Source: an uncultured Verrucomicrobiota bacterium (GTDB lineage Bacteria; Verrucomicrobiota; Verrucomicrobiia; Chthoniobacterales; JACTMZ01). Taken from it: a DNA stretch of 41,339 bases. The position numbers and the translations under genes were made by a program. The notes under the pieces are model-generated. The model searched no databases. It was not told the origin of the DNA and saw only the letters and a program-made list of their open reading frames with translations. The first letter of the stretch is position 1. Each line of letters begins with the position of its first letter. The stretch is taken from contig CAIZMQ010000090.1 in assembly GCA_903934135.1 (NCBI GenBank), positions 1-41,339 on the forward strand, read 5' to 3'. Positions 1,624 through 16,765 of the stretch are shown here, piece by piece.

Positions 1624-3105
1624 TCAGCTCAGGCGCCGACGACGCAGGACGTACGCACCGAGGGCAACGGCCGAGATACCAAGCAGCGCATAGGTCGAGG
1701 GCTCCGGCACAGCTTCGACCCGGATAAGACCGTGCTCCGTGCCTTGGTAGAGCACGCCATCGGGACTGATCATGCTGACCATCTGCAGCGGGTTGTCGCC
1801 GGATGAGGAACCGTAGGGAGTGCTGCTGAGCACTGCACCAGTATCCGGATCGATCGTGATCATGCTGTAGACGCGGGTGTTGGTGTCGACACTCATGGTG
1901 TAGATGAGGTTGTCGAAAACCGACAAGCGCGGCTCCGCAGCCGAGGTGATCGTGTTGTTCGACCAGACGGTTTGAAGGCTGCCGTCGGGCAACACATCCA
2001 CGCGTTGCATGCCGCCAACGAACGGTGCGGATGCGGGGTCGCTCGGACCGCTCTCCGCCGACGGCGGATACGGGTAGCCGTAGGTGCTCGGGTAATAAAT
2101 GCTGTTGCCCACGGCGATCGCCGCATCCTCGTTGCCGCTGTTCACGCCGGCGGTCAGGAAGGGCACCGAGCCGACCAAGGCGCCGGAAATTGTCTGGTAA
2201 ACCAGGATGTTCTCTTGCGGTGCGGCGTTGTCGGTAATCGTCAGGTATTCATAGCCGTTGGTAGGTCCGAAAAAGGCCGGCGTGGCACCCGTGCCCCAAC
2301 TCAACTGCCCGGGCTTGCGGGCCGGACCTGCGTCATAGGTTTCACGCCAAAGTTGCTCCGGTGCGTTGGTGCCTGCATTGAACATGTAGAGCGCGGCGGT
2401 GGAGGCAACGGCCACACCGGCGGGTGAAGACGAAATGCTGTTGGCGACCTGCTCGCCGGTCGGCAGGGTGACGTGTGCGGTCTGCTCGGTGGAAGGGTCG
2501 TAATAGCCGACCACCGCCCCCGAACCGGCCGATGTTCCCTGGGCGGTGGCGAACCAGACCCTCCCTTGGTAGTCGGGAACAAGGCCGACGACATCGGGAT
2601 AGCCGATTTGCACCGATGACTCGACGTTGAGCGACCACGAACCGCCGGCCGCTTGGGTGTGGGAAATTCGCTGGAGAAAGCCGTTGGCGTTGACCAGCAC
2701 CAAGCGGTCGTCGTTGTCCAAGTAGGAATAAATCCCGCCGGCAAGTTCGCTCGTGGTGGACCTGACGAGCTCCATCGGAGTGGCCAGCGACTCGAGGGTG
2801 GTCGGGTCGAGGAGGTAAACGTAGGGAGTCCGGTTTTCCAGCCGGGTGGCGACCGACACGATCAGTCCGTCCGATCCCATGAGAATGGTCGGAAAGACAG
2901 CGCCGTAATTCGTATTGATGATCGAGACAGGTCCGGAGCCGGGTCCTGGATTCGTGGTGGCGTCGGACGACGCCGCGTTGGCGTGCATCGTGGCGGTGCC
3001 GGGTGGTCCCATGAAAGGGTTGGCCGGGGGAAAAGTTTGCGCCGCGGCATCGATGGCCAGAAGGAAAGCACAGATCCCGAGACATGGCCGCACGTGAGAA
3101 ATCAT
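1624..3105 (-). CDS. PEP-CTERM secreted protein, beta-propeller-like
   Basis: The protein has 493 residues. It starts with a signal peptide (MISHVRPCLGICAFLLAIDAAAQ) and ends with VPEPSTYALLGISAVALG and an RRRR tail, so it should be exported and handled by a PEP-CTERM/exosortase system. Between these, repeated four-strand-like stretches (for example PYVYLLDPTTLESLATP, RVWFATAQGTSAGSG, NLIYTMSVDTNTRVY) look like blades of an SMP30- or PQQ-like beta-propeller. I see no catalytic signature and do not assign an activity. The start is ATG at 3105, which directly precedes the signal peptide. The next gene on the same strand follows after about 150 bp containing a hairpin, so it is probably a separate transcription unit. 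Confidence 0.8.
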   Translation of the reverse strand: MISHVRPCLGICAFLLAIDAAAQTFPPANPFMGPPGTATMHANAASSDATTNPGPGSGPVSIINTNYGAVFPTILMGSDGLIVSVATRLENRTPYVYLLDPTTLESLATPMELVRSTTSELAGGIYSYLDNDDRLVLVNANGFLQRISHTQAAGGSWSLNVESSVQIGYPDVVGLVPDYQGRVWFATAQGTSAGSGAVVGYYDPSTEQTAHVTLPTGEQVANSISSSPAGVAVASTAALYMFNAGTNAPEQLWRETYDAGPARKPGQLSWGTGATPAFFGPTNGYEYLTITDNAAPQENILVYQTISGALVGSVPFLTAGVNSGNEDAAIAVGNSIYYPSTYGYPYPPSAESGPSDPASAPFVGGMQRVDVLPDGSLQTVWSNNTITSAAEPRLSVFDNLIYTMSVDTNTRVYSMITIDPDTGAVLSSTPYGSSSGDNPLQMVSMISPDGVLYQGTEHGLIRVEAVPEPSTYALLGISAVALGAYVLRRRRLS

Positions 3106-3156: not shown

Positions 3157-3250
3157 ACGTTCCTCTCTTCGTTTCGTTGACTCCCTCGCCTTCGGTGGCC
3201 TCTGGCCATCTGCCCCGAGCGCCCGTGCGCTCCGGTGCTCGTTACCTTGT
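3157..3250 (-). repeat. Dispersed intergenic repeat, module B (copy 1)
   Basis: This stretch closely matches 16655-16752 and 11333-11427. Shared blocks on the plus strand include GTTGACTCCCTCGC, GGCCATCTGCCCCGAGCGC and GCGCTCCGGTGCTCGTTA. It contains the GAGCGC...GCGCTC hairpin. It lies in the gap between the gene starting at 3105 and the gene ending at 3427. Confidence 0.75.
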
Positions 3251-3271
3251 GTTCAAAAAATTCCCGCCATT

Positions 3272-3381
3272 CCCTCCTCCGTGATCTCCGTGCCTTGGTG
3301 AGAGCAATGTCCGCTCCCTGCCTCCCGAGCCTTGGCCCGGGAACTTGAGAACTCTCACGGAGACACGAAGCGCACGGAGCC
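3272..3381. repeat. Dispersed inverted repeat, module A (copy 1)
   Basis: The left arm CCTCCGTGATCTCCGTGCC (continuing TTGGTGAGAG, about 3275-3304) and the right arm CTCTCACGGAGACACGAAG (continuing CGCACGGAGC, about 3352-3380) are approximate reverse complements of each other. About 47 bp including CCTTGGCCCGGGAA lie between them. The same structure recurs at 16505-16610. The arms consist of short CTCCGTG-like units. It could fold into a long imperfect hairpin. It resembles a non-coding, MITE- or REP-like element; no transposase is present nearby. Confidence 0.75.
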
Positions 3382-3426: not shown

Positions 3427-4260
3427 TCAGACCGAAGAATTCTTCATCCGCCTGCAGACCACGAAGAACAAGGAGAGGATGCCGAAGGCAAAATAATGGA
3501 AAGTGGCCGGCTCTGGAACCACCGCATAAGCCGAATGAATATAATAGTCGTTGCCCGCATACTGGGCGATCGAGAAATAATTGACCCCATCATAAGCATC
3601 CCAAGCATGCGCGCTGGCGAAACCCGCTCCGGCACCCGGAACGGCGCCATGCAAAGGATCTTGCGGATCAACGAACGAAATGGTGGCGTTGTCCGTCTCG
3701 CTGACGTAACCCAGATTATTTAGGTCGGTCCAGTTGAAGCCGCCAAAAGAAACCGCGTGCCCGATGGTGGCTGCGCTGCCCGGCAGGGGAAAGAGCAACA
3801 GCTGCACGGTGGCCGAAAGCAAAGCGGACTGATACAAGTCGGACAGCCGGGGAAAAGTATATTTGGTGACCGACAAATCGGAAAAACCTTTCGACTGGAA
3901 ATAGCTTTCCATGCCGGAAGTAATATTAGCCGAGTCTGTCCCCTGCGTCGGCGTGGTATTCAAGTAGGATGGCCCGGATAAATTAATGGCAGACTGGATC
4001 CAGTCGCCATACGTGGCGCCGACGAGGGCTGTCTGGAAGGTTTCGGGGTATTGGTTTTGCAGTTTGACCATCAGGTTGACCCAGGAGGTCGGATTGCAAC
4101 CATTTTGCCCGGTGGCTTGGACAATCTGCGGCTCTCTCTGGTCGAGCCATCCGAAGTTCGCGACGTTCTGCAATGCGGAATACGTCGTCTGGGCCTGTGC
4201 GGTCCAAGGGCAACTGGCGAGGCAAACAACAACCGCAAAACTTGCCATGATTTTCTTCAT
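3427..4260 (-). CDS. PEP-CTERM protein with C39-like cysteine-peptidase-like domain
   Basis: The protein has 277 residues from the ATG at 4260 (MKKIMASFAVVVCLASC, signal peptide ending at AQAQ). The ORF track starts upstream at 4500, but the signal peptide fixes the start at 4260. The mature part has the order expected for a papain-fold C39-like peptidase: a Gln-rich segment and Cys55 in GQNGCNPTSWVNLM, His168 in GHAVSFGG and an Asp in ISFVDPQDP (about residue 198). The tail is an unusual PEP-CTERM: VPEPATFHYFAFG, a hydrophobic helix containing a Cys, then CRRMKNSSV. The activity is inferred from residue spacing only; a non-catalytic relative is possible. Its GC content is visibly lower than that of the housekeeping genes to the right. 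Confidence 0.75.
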   Translation of the reverse strand: MKKIMASFAVVVCLASCPWTAQAQTTYSALQNVANFGWLDQREPQIVQATGQNGCNPTSWVNLMVKLQNQYPETFQTALVGATYGDWIQSAINLSGPSYLNTTPTQGTDSANITSGMESYFQSKGFSDLSVTKYTFPRLSDLYQSALLSATVQLLLFPLPGSAATIGHAVSFGGFNWTDLNNLGYVSETDNATISFVDPQDPLHGAVPGAGAGFASAHAWDAYDGVNYFSIAQYAGNDYYIHSAYAVVPEPATFHYFAFGILSLFFVVCRRMKNSSV

Positions 4261-4421
4261 ACGAAGGGGCACCATAAGCTTCGGAGAGACCAAAGTCCAG
4301 TTGGGTGGCATCGGCGAGGGAAAGCTGCCCTCAAAGCCAGCACCGATGGCACAAACCGGCGCGACACATAGGGCGGCCCGCTGAGCCGTGGTCTTTGGCC
4401 GCGGACGAAGATAACCCAAGT

Positions 4422-11332: not shown

Positions 11333-11427
11333 GTTCCTCTCTTCGTTAAGTTGACTCCCTCGCTCCCACTCCTCTCGCCTGGCGTGGCCTGTGACCATCT
11401 GCCCCGAGCGCTCGCTCCAGTGACCTG
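11333..11427 (-). repeat. Dispersed intergenic repeat, module B (copy 2)
   Basis: GTTGACTCCCTCGCTCCC, CATCTGCCCCGAGCGC and neighbouring bases match copies 1 and 3. The hairpin core is partly decayed here. It sits directly 3' (on the minus strand) of the broken PEP-CTERM tail at 11437-11500. Confidence 0.7.
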
Positions 11428-13069: not shown

Positions 13070-14176
13070 ATGCACGACGGGCAAACAAAGAAACCGGAAA
13101 CACCTGCGCTGCGCCCGCCGAGGGCGGCGGGCCTGCAGCCCGATTTGCTGCAGAGATTGTCCTTCTGGCCGCTGCAGGTCGGGGGCTGGACGCTCTACAC
13201 GATCTTTCCGCTCGCCGCATATTTTGCGGGGGGCGTCCATAGCCCGGATTACCTGTGGTTGGCCTTGACCAGGGGGGTCTCGGGCCTCCTGCTCACCTCG
13301 GCGCTGCGACCCCTCTGCCAACGCATTTTCAAGGCGAAGATCCGTTATGCCGTCCTCTTGCCGCTGCTGGTGGTGGCCGCACTCGTCCTCGGCGTCCTCG
13401 AGCTGGATGCCATGCGGCGCATCGGAACGTTGCTGGGAATTCCTTCTTACGGGTTCGCGCAAAGCGAGGTGTACACGGGCTTCGTCCTACTGCGGGCGAT
13501 CGTGCTGCTTCTCTGGCTCCTGCTCTATTTCGGCATCAAGACGCTGCGGCAGACCGCCGAGACTGAACGGGAATTCCGGAAAGCGGAGGCCAGGCTGCTG
13601 CGCTCGCAGATGAACCCGCATTTTCTTTTCAACGCGCTCAACACGATCATGGCGGTGCGCAACGACGCGGACAAGGTGGAGACAGTCACCCAATCGCTGG
13701 CTGACTACCTGCGCTTCTCGCTGCAACAGGAGGAGGGCGAGGAGCACGGGTTGTCGACACATCCGCTCGGCGACGAACTGGCCGCCCTCGAGGATTACCT
13801 GAGGGTGGAGAAGGTGCGCTTCGGCGACGACCTCGTCTGGCGCATCGATGCGGGGGAGGATGCGCGCCGCACGCCGGTGCCCTCGGCCCTGGTGCAACCG
13901 CTCTTGGAGAACGCGATCAAATACGGGCAGGAGACCGGCCCGCGGCCGCTCCGCGTCTCGATCACCGCACAGGTTGCGCAGGGCAAGCTGCAACTTGCCG
14001 TGGAAAACTCCGGCCACTGGGTGGAAGAAGGGTCGCCGCAAGCGGGCCGCATCGGCCTGAGCAACCTGAAGCGGAGGCTCGCTTTGATCTACGGCCGCAC
14101 CGCCTCGCTCGACGTTCGCCACACCCCTGCCATGGTCAAGGTGTGCATCGCCCTCCCCGCCCGACCATCGCCATGA
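13070..14176 (+). CDS. LytS/AlgZ-type sensor histidine kinase
   Basis: The 368-residue membrane kinase belongs to the His_kinase (PF06580-type) family. Four hydrophobic segments lie at about residues 32-55, 61-80, 93-112 and 134-156. A short linker follows, then the H-box QMNPHFLFNALNTI with His184 as phosphoacceptor. The ATPase part shows the N-box QPLLENAIKYG (Asn281) and the glycine-rich IGLSNLKRRLALIYG. There is no periplasmic sensor domain, so the signal is probably sensed in the membrane. It overlaps the response regulator by an ATGA junction, so the two are translated together and form a pair. The 21-bp-spaced direct repeats upstream suggest autoregulation. The length fits the family. 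Confidence 0.93.
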   Translation: MHDGQTKKPETPALRPPRAAGLQPDLLQRLSFWPLQVGGWTLYTIFPLAAYFAGGVHSPDYLWLALTRGVSGLLLTSALRPLCQRIFKAKIRYAVLLPLLVVAALVLGVLELDAMRRIGTLLGIPSYGFAQSEVYTGFVLLRAIVLLLWLLLYFGIKTLRQTAETEREFRKAEARLLRSQMNPHFLFNALNTIMAVRNDADKVETVTQSLADYLRFSLQQEEGEEHGLSTHPLGDELAALEDYLRVEKVRFGDDLVWRIDAGEDARRTPVPSALVQPLLENAIKYGQETGPRPLRVSITAQVAQGKLQLAVENSGHWVEEGSPQAGRIGLSNLKRRLALIYGRTASLDVRHTPAMVKVCIALPARPSP

Positions 14177-14952
14177 GCACGGTGGCCAAGGGCACCGTGA
14201 TCCGCGCCGTGCTCGTGGATGACGAACAACCGGCGCGCCAGCAAATGCGCGAGCGCCTCGATGCCCATCCCGGCATCGTCGTCGTGGGCGAGGCGGACCG
14301 CGTGAAGTCCGCCGCCGACTTGATCGGGAAAACAAAGCCGGACGTGATCTTCCTCGATGTGCAAATGCCGGGCGGCACGGGCTTCGCGCTTCTTCCCCTG
14401 CTCGCCGACCTGGACCCGCCACCCGCCGTGGTATTTGTCACCGCTTATGACACCTACGCGGTGAAAGCTTTCGAAACCAATGCGCTCGATTACCTGACCA
14501 AGCCGGTCAAGGCGAGCCGGCTTGCCCTCACCATCGATCGTTTGCAGAAACGGCCGCTGCCCGGCACTGCACCCGCACAGGACGAAACGGCGCCGGGCCC
14601 GGCGGCAGGACGGTTGGAACTGCGCGACCTCGTGCTCCTGCGGGAAAAGAACTCCACGCGCATGGTCGAGGCGGGAGAAATCTGTGCGGTGGAAACGGAG
14701 GCCGACTACACACGCATCCATCTCAGCGGCGGACATACGGTGCTCATGCGCAAAAAGATGACGCAATGGGAAGAGGAATTGCCTGCGCCGCCCTTCCAAA
14801 AAATCAGCCGCCGCCTGCTGCTCAACGTGCCGCGCATCAACGGCATCGTGGCACACGACCGCGAGAGCGCCGAGGTTCGTTTCGAAGGCACGGAAAAGAT
14901 CGTCGTGGTCAGCCGGATGGAATTGCGCCGCATCCGGCAGGCGTCGCAATAA
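14173..14952 (+). CDS. LytTR-family response regulator
   Basis: The protein has 259 residues from the ATG at 14173, which overlaps the kinase stop codon (ATGA). The ORF track's start at 14143 lies deep inside the kinase gene and is less likely. The receiver domain (about residues 10-125) has acidic VDDEQPARQQM, phosphoacceptor Asp62 in VIFLDVQMPGGTG, Thr90 in VFVTAYD and Lys110 in LTKPVKA. The C-terminal LytTR DNA-binding domain (about 150-255) shows ICAVETEADYTRIHL, VLMRKKMTQWEEEL and FQKISRRLLLNVPRINGI. It should bind paired direct repeats and is the partner of the upstream kinase. Target genes are not known; the adjacent PEP-CTERM gene is a candidate. Confidence 0.93.
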   Translation: MSTVAKGTVIRAVLVDDEQPARQQMRERLDAHPGIVVVGEADRVKSAADLIGKTKPDVIFLDVQMPGGTGFALLPLLADLDPPPAVVFVTAYDTYAVKAFETNALDYLTKPVKASRLALTIDRLQKRPLPGTAPAQDETAPGPAAGRLELRDLVLLREKNSTRMVEAGEICAVETEADYTRIHLSGGHTVLMRKKMTQWEEELPAPPFQKISRRLLLNVPRINGIVAHDRESAEVRFEGTEKIVVVSRMELRRIRQASQ

Positions 14953-15762: not shown

Positions 15763-15797
15763 TTGACATACGAAGCTGCTTCGCATAAGTTGGCCAA
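15763..15797 (+). promoter_or_regulatory. Promoter with embedded palindrome, likely leaderless start
   Basis: TTGACA (15763-15768), a 17-bp spacer and TAAGTT (15786-15791) form a sigma70-like promoter. The palindrome CGAAGCTGCTTCG (15771-15783) fills the spacer, a typical place for an operator. Initiation about 7 bp after the -10 box would fall on the ATG at 15798, so the mRNA may be leaderless. Confidence 0.5.
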
Positions 15798-16157
15798 ATG
15801 CCGACATTCGACAAGCTGACTGCCCATTACTCGCGGATCGGGCGCAAGGGTGGACGCGCGAAGAGCCCTGCCAAAAGTCATGCCGCACGTTTGGCTGCAC
15901 TAGCCCGCTGGGGCGACAGCGGCACCGCATCCATTCCTGCGGGGGAATTGAAAGACAGACAGTGGTATGGCGGAAAAGGTCGCAATGCCGATATCGCCCT
16001 GTGGGACGGACGAAACAAGACCTTCTGGGTGACTTGCATCAATGATTTTATCTCCCCCATCGACTACCCGCGCCCAGGAACCCGCGCGGTGCGCCTCAAG
16101 GGCGAGAAGCATTACGATGACGGGGGAACCTTCCGTCCTCTTCGGGAGATTCGGTGA
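15798..16157 (+). CDS. Small basic protein, possible partner of an AbiEii-like protein
   Basis: The 119-residue protein is not recognised as a named family. The N-terminal third is basic and rich in Lys, Arg, Ala and Gly (IGRKGGRAKSPAKSHAARLA), suitable for contact with nucleic acid. The remainder has WYGGKGRNADIALWDGRNK and PRPGTRAVRLKGEKHYDDGG, which reads like a compact beta domain. Its stop overlaps the GTG start of the next gene (GTGA), so the two are translationally coupled. A palindromic operator-like site inside its promoter would suit an autoregulated pair such as a type IV toxin-antitoxin unit, but the family assignment is not established. Confidence 0.65.
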   Translation: MPTFDKLTAHYSRIGRKGGRAKSPAKSHAARLAALARWGDSGTASIPAGELKDRQWYGGKGRNADIALWDGRNKTFWVTCINDFISPIDYPRPGTRAVRLKGEKHYDDGGTFRPLREIR

Positions 16158-16669
16158 GCTTCTCGACAGGAGAGCAAGCGTTGGCGGCTTTGGCCGCACT
16201 TGGCCATAAGCTCGATGAACACGGGACGGAGCCGGTCTCCCTGCTCATTTGCGGCGGGGCTGCCATGAACATCTCCGGCTTGCTGACACGCCTCACGGCT
16301 GATGTTGACGTGCTTGGTGATATGCACGCGAATGGCGAACTCGGCGAAATGCCAGATTGGATTCACGCTATCGCGACGGAAGTGGCAGAGGAGTTGGGTT
16401 TGGAGAGGCATTGGCTCAACGACGCCGCTGCTTCGGTGACTTCCATGGGACTTCCTTCGGGAATTATTCTGCGCGCAACATCCGGGCAAAAACTCAGGCC
16501 ATTTCCTCTCCGTGATCTCTGTGCCTTAGTGAGAGAAAAATCGGCTCCTTGCCTCCGACCCCTAGCCCGGGAACCGGAAACCTCTCACGAAGACACAAAG
16601 AGCACGGAGGCAGCGAGGACGGAGAGACGGTGCATCCGGGGCCCCAGTCCTCCCCCTTCGTTACGTTGA
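16154..16669 (+). pseudogene. AbiEii/DUF6036-like nucleotidyltransferase, truncated by a repeat element
   Basis: It starts at a GTG overlapping the preceding stop. Residues 1 to about 112 look like the N-terminal part of a nucleotidyltransferase-fold protein (AbiEii or DUF6036-like): LLICGGAAMNISGLLTRLTA followed by DVDVLG gives the GG...DxD active-site signature, then HWLNDAAASV and LPSGIILRA. After about position 16488 the frame runs into repeat module A (the CTCTCCGTGATCTCTGTGCC sequence). The remaining 60 residues, including LRDLCALVREKS, are translated repeat DNA, not family sequence. The C-terminal helical half is therefore missing and the protein is probably inactive. The open frame itself is intact. 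Confidence 0.65.
16505..16610. repeat. Dispersed inverted repeat, module A (copy 2)
   Basis: The left arm CCTCTCCGTGATCTCTGTGC (about 16505-16535) and the right arm CCTCTCACGAAGACACAAAG (about 16581-16610) form the same imperfect inverted repeat as at 3272-3381. The spacer again contains a CCCGGGAAC block. The copy interrupts the nucleotidyltransferase-like gene. Confidence 0.75.
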
Positions 16670-16752
16670 CTCCCTCGCTCCCGCTCATCTCGCCTGCGGT
16701 GGCCTGTGGCCATCTGCCCCGAGCGCCCGCGCGCTCCGGTGCTCGTTATCTT
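16655..16752 (-). repeat. Dispersed intergenic repeat, module B (copy 3)
   Basis: GTTGACTCCCTCGCTCCCGC through GCGCTCCGGTGCTCGTTA matches copies 1 and 2. It begins 14 bp after the stop codon of the 16766-17752 gene on its strand. Its CCGGAGCGC / GCGCTCGGG hairpin (one mismatch) could end that transcript. Confidence 0.75.
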
Positions 16753-16765
16753 TTGTTTAAAAATT

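Follow-up and report, generated by a model that had tools for sequence, protein, structure and literature searches.

An intact gene for a protein of 119 amino acids (gene A, positions 15798 to 16157 of the forward strand) is followed by the remnant of a second gene (gene B, 16154 to 16486, same strand) in the window, the whole 41,339-nucleotide stretch of DNA from an uncultured Verrucomicrobiota bacterium that was analysed here. Gene A is proposed to encode an antitoxin that is also an autorepressor. The GTG start codon of gene B at 16154 overlaps the stop codon of gene A by four bases (GTGA, 16154-16157), which is the coupling given in the preliminary description. The remnant encodes roughly the first 109-111 residues of a 192-residue polymerase-beta-type nucleotidyltransferase; its homology to relatives ends near 16481-16486, where a dispersed repeat (16479 to 16761) begins at about 16479 and cuts the gene, and the open frame continues inside the repeat to 16669. 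The "AbiEii-like" label given earlier to the second protein is only loosely right as to type, and the gene B of the window is truncated, not an intact AbiEii-like gene; this truncation makes it very unlikely that the window copy works as a toxin-antitoxin pair. The repeat, which is associated with gene truncation in the window, belongs to a family whose members reach about 280 bp; further window copies lie at about 3185-3379 and 11341-11415, and others lie on several other contigs; repeat-related sequence in the same genus adjoins gene A in genome G391 (locus L110, about 2548-3033, identified by eye). Just upstream of the unit, positions 13070-14952 hold the genes of a histidine kinase (His_kinase family) and a LytTR response regulator.

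The ATG of gene A at 15798 is not preceded by a Shine-Dalgarno sequence in the window, and an in-frame TAA at 15786-15788, 10-12 nt before this ATG, leaves no common start codon farther 5' in that frame. On the forward strand a -35-like TTGACA (15763-15768) and a -10-like CATAAG (15784-15789) are separated by 15 nt, and between them lies a 21-bp palindromic predicted operator box, CATACGAAGCTGCTTCGCATA (15767-15787), whose centre is 21 nt 5' of the ATG and whose right arm is overlapped by CATAAG. All elements of the promoter first proposed, TTGACA-N17-TAAGTT with a 13-bp palindrome in its spacer, are present: the palindrome core CGAAGC-T-GCTTCG occupies 15771-15783 and TAAGTT occupies 15786-15791, with a spacer of 17 nt. 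The 13-bp palindrome is real, but the conserved box extends to 21 bp; likewise the TAAGTT hexamer exists, but the conserved TATAAN/CATAAN motif, here CATAAG, is likelier as the -10 element. A stock promoter scan of the window does not call this site. Palindromes with arms of at least 6 occur in about 0.8% of the 17-bp stretches of this window, so the single-window palindrome is just mildly unusual, and its significance comes from comparison. A 38-aa upstream frame that ends at 15819 was rejected as non-coding, since most of its few differences from a near-identical relative change a residue.

That relative (L009) is a metagenome-assembled genome labelled Chthoniobacter flavus (contig CAMBUL010000035.1), whose neighbourhood is about 93-96% identical to that of the window. 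Its A protein is 98% identical to the window A, and its gene B is intact, encodes 192 aa and has the same GTGA overlap. A VapBC-like pair (including a PIN protein of 144 aa) that is absent from the window lies between gene B and an epimerase gene there (3648-4330), and very similar pairs occur in G395 (L107) and G391 (L051 and L110). The A-B pair was also found in four further genomes of the window's genus, with A proteins 42-49% identical to that of the window, and an A profile search added ten more loci in the class. Eight of these ten carry a B homologue behind A (that of L065 is truncated, and the A of L074 is cut by a contig end), while behind the A of L068 and L073 no B was found; the intact two-gene homologues called for by the preliminary description thus exist, in L009 and elsewhere. 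A phylum-level A match in L011 was set aside as chance because it runs opposite a longer, better-looking gene frame.

The paired B proteins keep residues that correspond to the catalytic motifs of a known toxin family. In AbiEii, the motifs hG[G/S], R and DxD (motifs I-II) and K and D (motifs III-IV) are catalytic, and their mutation abolishes toxicity (PMC3985639). All 11 paired B proteins share the residues G34, R46, D50, D52, K131 and D147, which correspond to these motifs, with the correspondence at motifs III-IV, whose spacing differs from AbiEii, made by eye. In profile comparisons the intact L009 B reaches 22.3 bits against DUF6036 (PF19502; cut-off 23.6), with an E value of 1.3e-4 that is the best among the members, and 16.5 bits against AbiEii/DUF1814 (curated cut-off 22.5); the protein is thus closer to DUF6036 than to the AbiEii of its earlier label, and it reaches no curated toxin cut-off. 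DUF6036, which is not mentioned in the literature searched, is the Pfam family most often matched by the paired B proteins (10 of 11 at E values up to 0.1), and AbiEii is matched by 6 of the 11 at the same threshold, the best at 3.8e-7, so that some relatives may pass the cut-off. No solved relative of A or of B was found, and plasmids yielded no tblastn match to B at E values up to 0.01.

A phylum-wide B search returned over 20 full-length relatives, all of them lacking an upstream A, and the resulting reading that the pair is not conserved was overturned by the genus search. When 384 genomes of the class were searched with a paired-B profile, the eleven intact paired B proteins scored at least 254 bits and everything else at most 191, a gap that is partly by construction because the profile was built from those eleven. 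In the tree the eleven cluster as a single clade (support 96/91) that is recovered as a group in 96% of bootstrap trees, and each of these eleven intact genes has A directly upstream, overlapping it or separated by a short gap; no intact B of this clade without A turned up in a search independent of A. More distant B relatives are common as solo genes and have neither A nor the palindrome. Genes for HsdM-type DNA methylases lie directly before the solo B relatives L090 and L095 (also L036 and L103, by eye), and these solo genes are probably located inside type I restriction-modification loci. Six solo B genes (L018, L022, L024, L026, L027 and L028) share a motif close to AAACCCATATTAAATAGGGG a short distance ahead of the start codon, and long inverted arms, AATGCTATTTATTAT/ATAATAAATAGCATT, lie upstream of the solo B of L089; the solo genes may have operators of their own.

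Within the genus, the A-B pairs are found at differing genomic places, and the neighbours of the G391 pair include genes for MazF, PIN and small nucleotidyltransferases. A search of G395 for a clean empty site showed that the entire left side differs there. Gene A is intact and gene B truncated at three loci (the window, L050 and L065), and together with the two loci at which no B was found, this makes five at which A has been kept and B is broken or not found. Although the cases are few, this is suggestive of the trace expected of a toxin held by its antitoxin. We consider it reasonably probable that the unit is an autoregulated toxin-antitoxin operon similar to AbiE and MenAT, in which A would repress its own synthesis through the box and keep the nucleotidyltransferase B in check. 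The principal alternative is an ordinary regulated operon, in which A is the autorepressor of a nontoxic nucleotidyltransferase whose target could be, for example, a protein, an RNA or a small molecule. The prevalence of distant solo B relatives, some directly behind HsdM-type genes and all persisting without A, indicates that an enzyme of this type can exist outside the control of A, and the scores of the intact L009 B below every curated toxin cut-off are in keeping with such an operon. It does not account well for the repeated loss of B with A retained and never the reverse, for the patchy, non-syntenic occurrence in the genus, or for the overlapping genes and the location of one pair among known toxin genes, and we regard it as possible but distinctly less probable than a toxin-antitoxin unit.

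The regulatory layout of the A-B unit is well supported by comparison of the homologous loci. Fifteen gene A homologues from seven genera share the palindrome, with the consensus TATACSAAG-N3-CTTSGTATA; these loci are not independent, as L009 and the window, L072 and L073, L067 and L070, and L065 and L069 are close kin. The 15 upstream regions align over the 21-bp box without gaps, its centre 20-22 nt before the start codon, and outside the box they do not align. The half-sites occur in forms that change symmetrically in both arms (ACGAAG, GCGAAG, GCCAAG and ACCAAG): counted from the centre, positions 3, 4, 6 and 8 never vary and are always paired, position 5 holds C-G in six loci, G-C in five and mismatched in four, and position 7 is A-T in nine, G-C in four and mismatched in two. 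In a shuffle test with nine representatives, the mean symmetry at the box is 7.44 of 8, and none of 2000 shuffled sets exceeds 4.67. The palindrome recurs at a fixed position ahead of gene A in 15 related loci that have otherwise diverged in sequence, which makes it very likely that it is a real control site, and the operator within the promoter that had been suspected from the window is supported accordingly. In L009 one core arm pair is broken: over about 50 bp this locus differs from the window at just two sites, and both fall inside the box, which is a point against the proposal; a perfect palindrome match therefore need not be required. In 11 genomes of the genus the strict box pattern occurs solely before A genes, while a looser pattern gives scattered further matches, mostly in larger genomes, so that the specificity for A is supported within the genus. 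A degenerate DNA pattern has no match in viral contigs.

The promoter motifs are kept with the box. TTG is conserved within 1 nt of its place in 14 of the 15 loci, and TATA or CATA in 14, with TATT in the remaining one; the hexamer is TATAAN or CATAAN in most relatives. The right-hand outermost A of the box is kept in 14 loci and its left partner is not, which is expected if the right side doubles as the -10 element. The half-sites resemble XerC/lox arm sequences, a likeness that we set aside because the -10 element already explains TATAA. The box is separated from the start codon by 9-11 nt at every one of the 15 loci, a Shine-Dalgarno-like string is found at only one, and the TATAAN hexamer ends 7-9 nt before the codon. 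By standard promoter geometry, this distance predicts that transcription begins at the codon or no more than about 3 nt from it, as had been predicted for the window from its sequence, and a leaderless or nearly leaderless gene A mRNA is likely. The spacer between TTG and TATAAN, 14-15 nt, is short for a sigma-70 promoter and counts against the explanation favoured here.

The same evidence bears on the possibility that the palindrome serves an outside regulator, or forms an RNA hairpin in a transcript from farther upstream, with A not binding to it. Half-sites that vary symmetrically are as compatible with a hairpin as with a dimer site, binding of A to the box is a prediction, and the -10 match of the window is imperfect. 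Several observations speak against this explanation: the box overlaps the TTG and TATA motifs at fixed spacing, and only the right-hand outermost A is kept, as the -10 role would have it; a regulon is at odds with a box that is tied to A genes, its strict pattern being found nowhere else in the genus; and the solo B genes lack the box. We judge this explanation improbable. The toxin-antitoxin layout proposed from the window alone stands as to the operator in the promoter and the coupled two-gene unit, both borne out by comparison, but it does not describe a complete pair in the window, where B is truncated; the palindrome probably switches off a two-gene unit of toxin-antitoxin type.

Protein A consists of a basic N-terminus with KGG/RW motifs (residues 1 to about 40), in which G-x-x-GG and RW are invariant, and a C-terminal domain (about 45-115) like that of phrog_18490, a phage protein family of unknown function. 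Fourteen of the 15 A members match phrog_18490 weakly, within the C-terminal domain (L.DG.WY.G..RN....WD....F). Phage proteins encoded at L075 (2887-3243) and L076 (2752-3249) have part of this domain; they differ from A in lacking the KGG/RW N-terminus, and no B gene adjoins them in the ORFs seen. The earlier statement that the first protein belongs to no recognised antitoxin family holds: A has no AbiEi match in Pfam, NCBIfam or PADLOC, and no sequence match to solved chains or curated antitoxin families was found. Its N-terminus shows no recognised DNA-binding fold, the protein has no recognisable winged helix, and tblastn with A found no match in plasmids at E values up to 0.01 or in phages at E values up to 1. 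Fold predictions of A and of the L009 B, made from shallow alignments, have a pLDDT of 44 and were not used. A reversal of roles, with A harmful and B modifying and silencing it as MntA silences HepT, would suit a nucleotidyltransferase B, given that a nucleotidyltransferase is the antitoxin of HEPN/MNT (PMC7641770), and an A that has a domain in common with phage proteins, but it is very improbable, as A is intact at the five loci where B is broken or missing and where a toxic A should do harm, and A has no HEPN family match in Pfam.

Among known systems, the toxin-antitoxin reading is closest to AbiE, a type IV toxin-antitoxin system of AbiEi and AbiEii (DUF1814; PMC3985639, PMC7319586). Both are two-gene units with the regulator first and, second, a nucleotidyltransferase in which G, R, DxD, K and D are kept, and in both inverted repeats overlap the promoter and autorepression is expected. 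The defining antitoxin AbiEi has a winged helix and a COG5340/DUF4095-type C-terminus, neither of which is found in the 119-residue A; AbiE has 23-bp repeats, whereas the A-B unit has one 21-bp palindrome and a start codon right beside the promoter; and B, with about 192 aa, is nearer to DUF6036 than to the AbiE toxin. Since A falls outside the AbiEi family and the L009 B below the cut-offs of both AbiEii and DUF6036, the unit is described as working like AbiE or MenAT and is not classed as a member of AbiE or DUF6036. In MenAT, MenT nucleotidyltransferase toxins of the same broad superfamily as B are paired with mutually unrelated MenA antitoxins (PMC11375011, PMC10435456). Because unrelated antitoxins thus serve related nucleotidyltransferases, it is plausible that A, which differs from them in having no match to solved chains or curated antitoxin families, represents an undescribed antitoxin family.

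We propose that the mRNA from which A is translated is leaderless or nearly so and that a dimer of A, or of an A-B complex, binds TATACSAAG-N3-CTTSGTATA through the basic KGG/RW N-terminus. As the box fills the space between the -35 and -10 elements, the bound protein would block RNA polymerase and so effect autorepression. B, a polymerase-beta-type nucleotidyltransferase, would probably inhibit growth by nucleotide transfer as MenT and AbiEii do, and A would keep it in check; in the window genome the repeat would have cut B, leaving A and its operator. The operator, its geometry, the gene pair, the catalytic motifs and the asymmetric decay are supported by comparison of the loci, and we infer the repressor role of A, the transcription start site, the toxicity of B and its neutralisation by A. 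A more speculative extension, which we judge improbable, is that A founds a new antitoxin family in which KGG/RW is an undescribed DNA-binding module, the C-terminal domain neutralises B, and phages carry this domain alone as an antidote to B-type defence enzymes.

If the proposal is true, A would represent an undescribed family of antitoxins and repressors for AbiEii-like nucleotidyltransferases in this phylum. The well-defined operator makes the binding of A directly testable, and the co-varying half-sites, together with the divergent N-termini of the A proteins, constitute a natural set for the study of residue-base recognition. The domain common to A and phage proteins suggests a testable link between defence and counter-defence.
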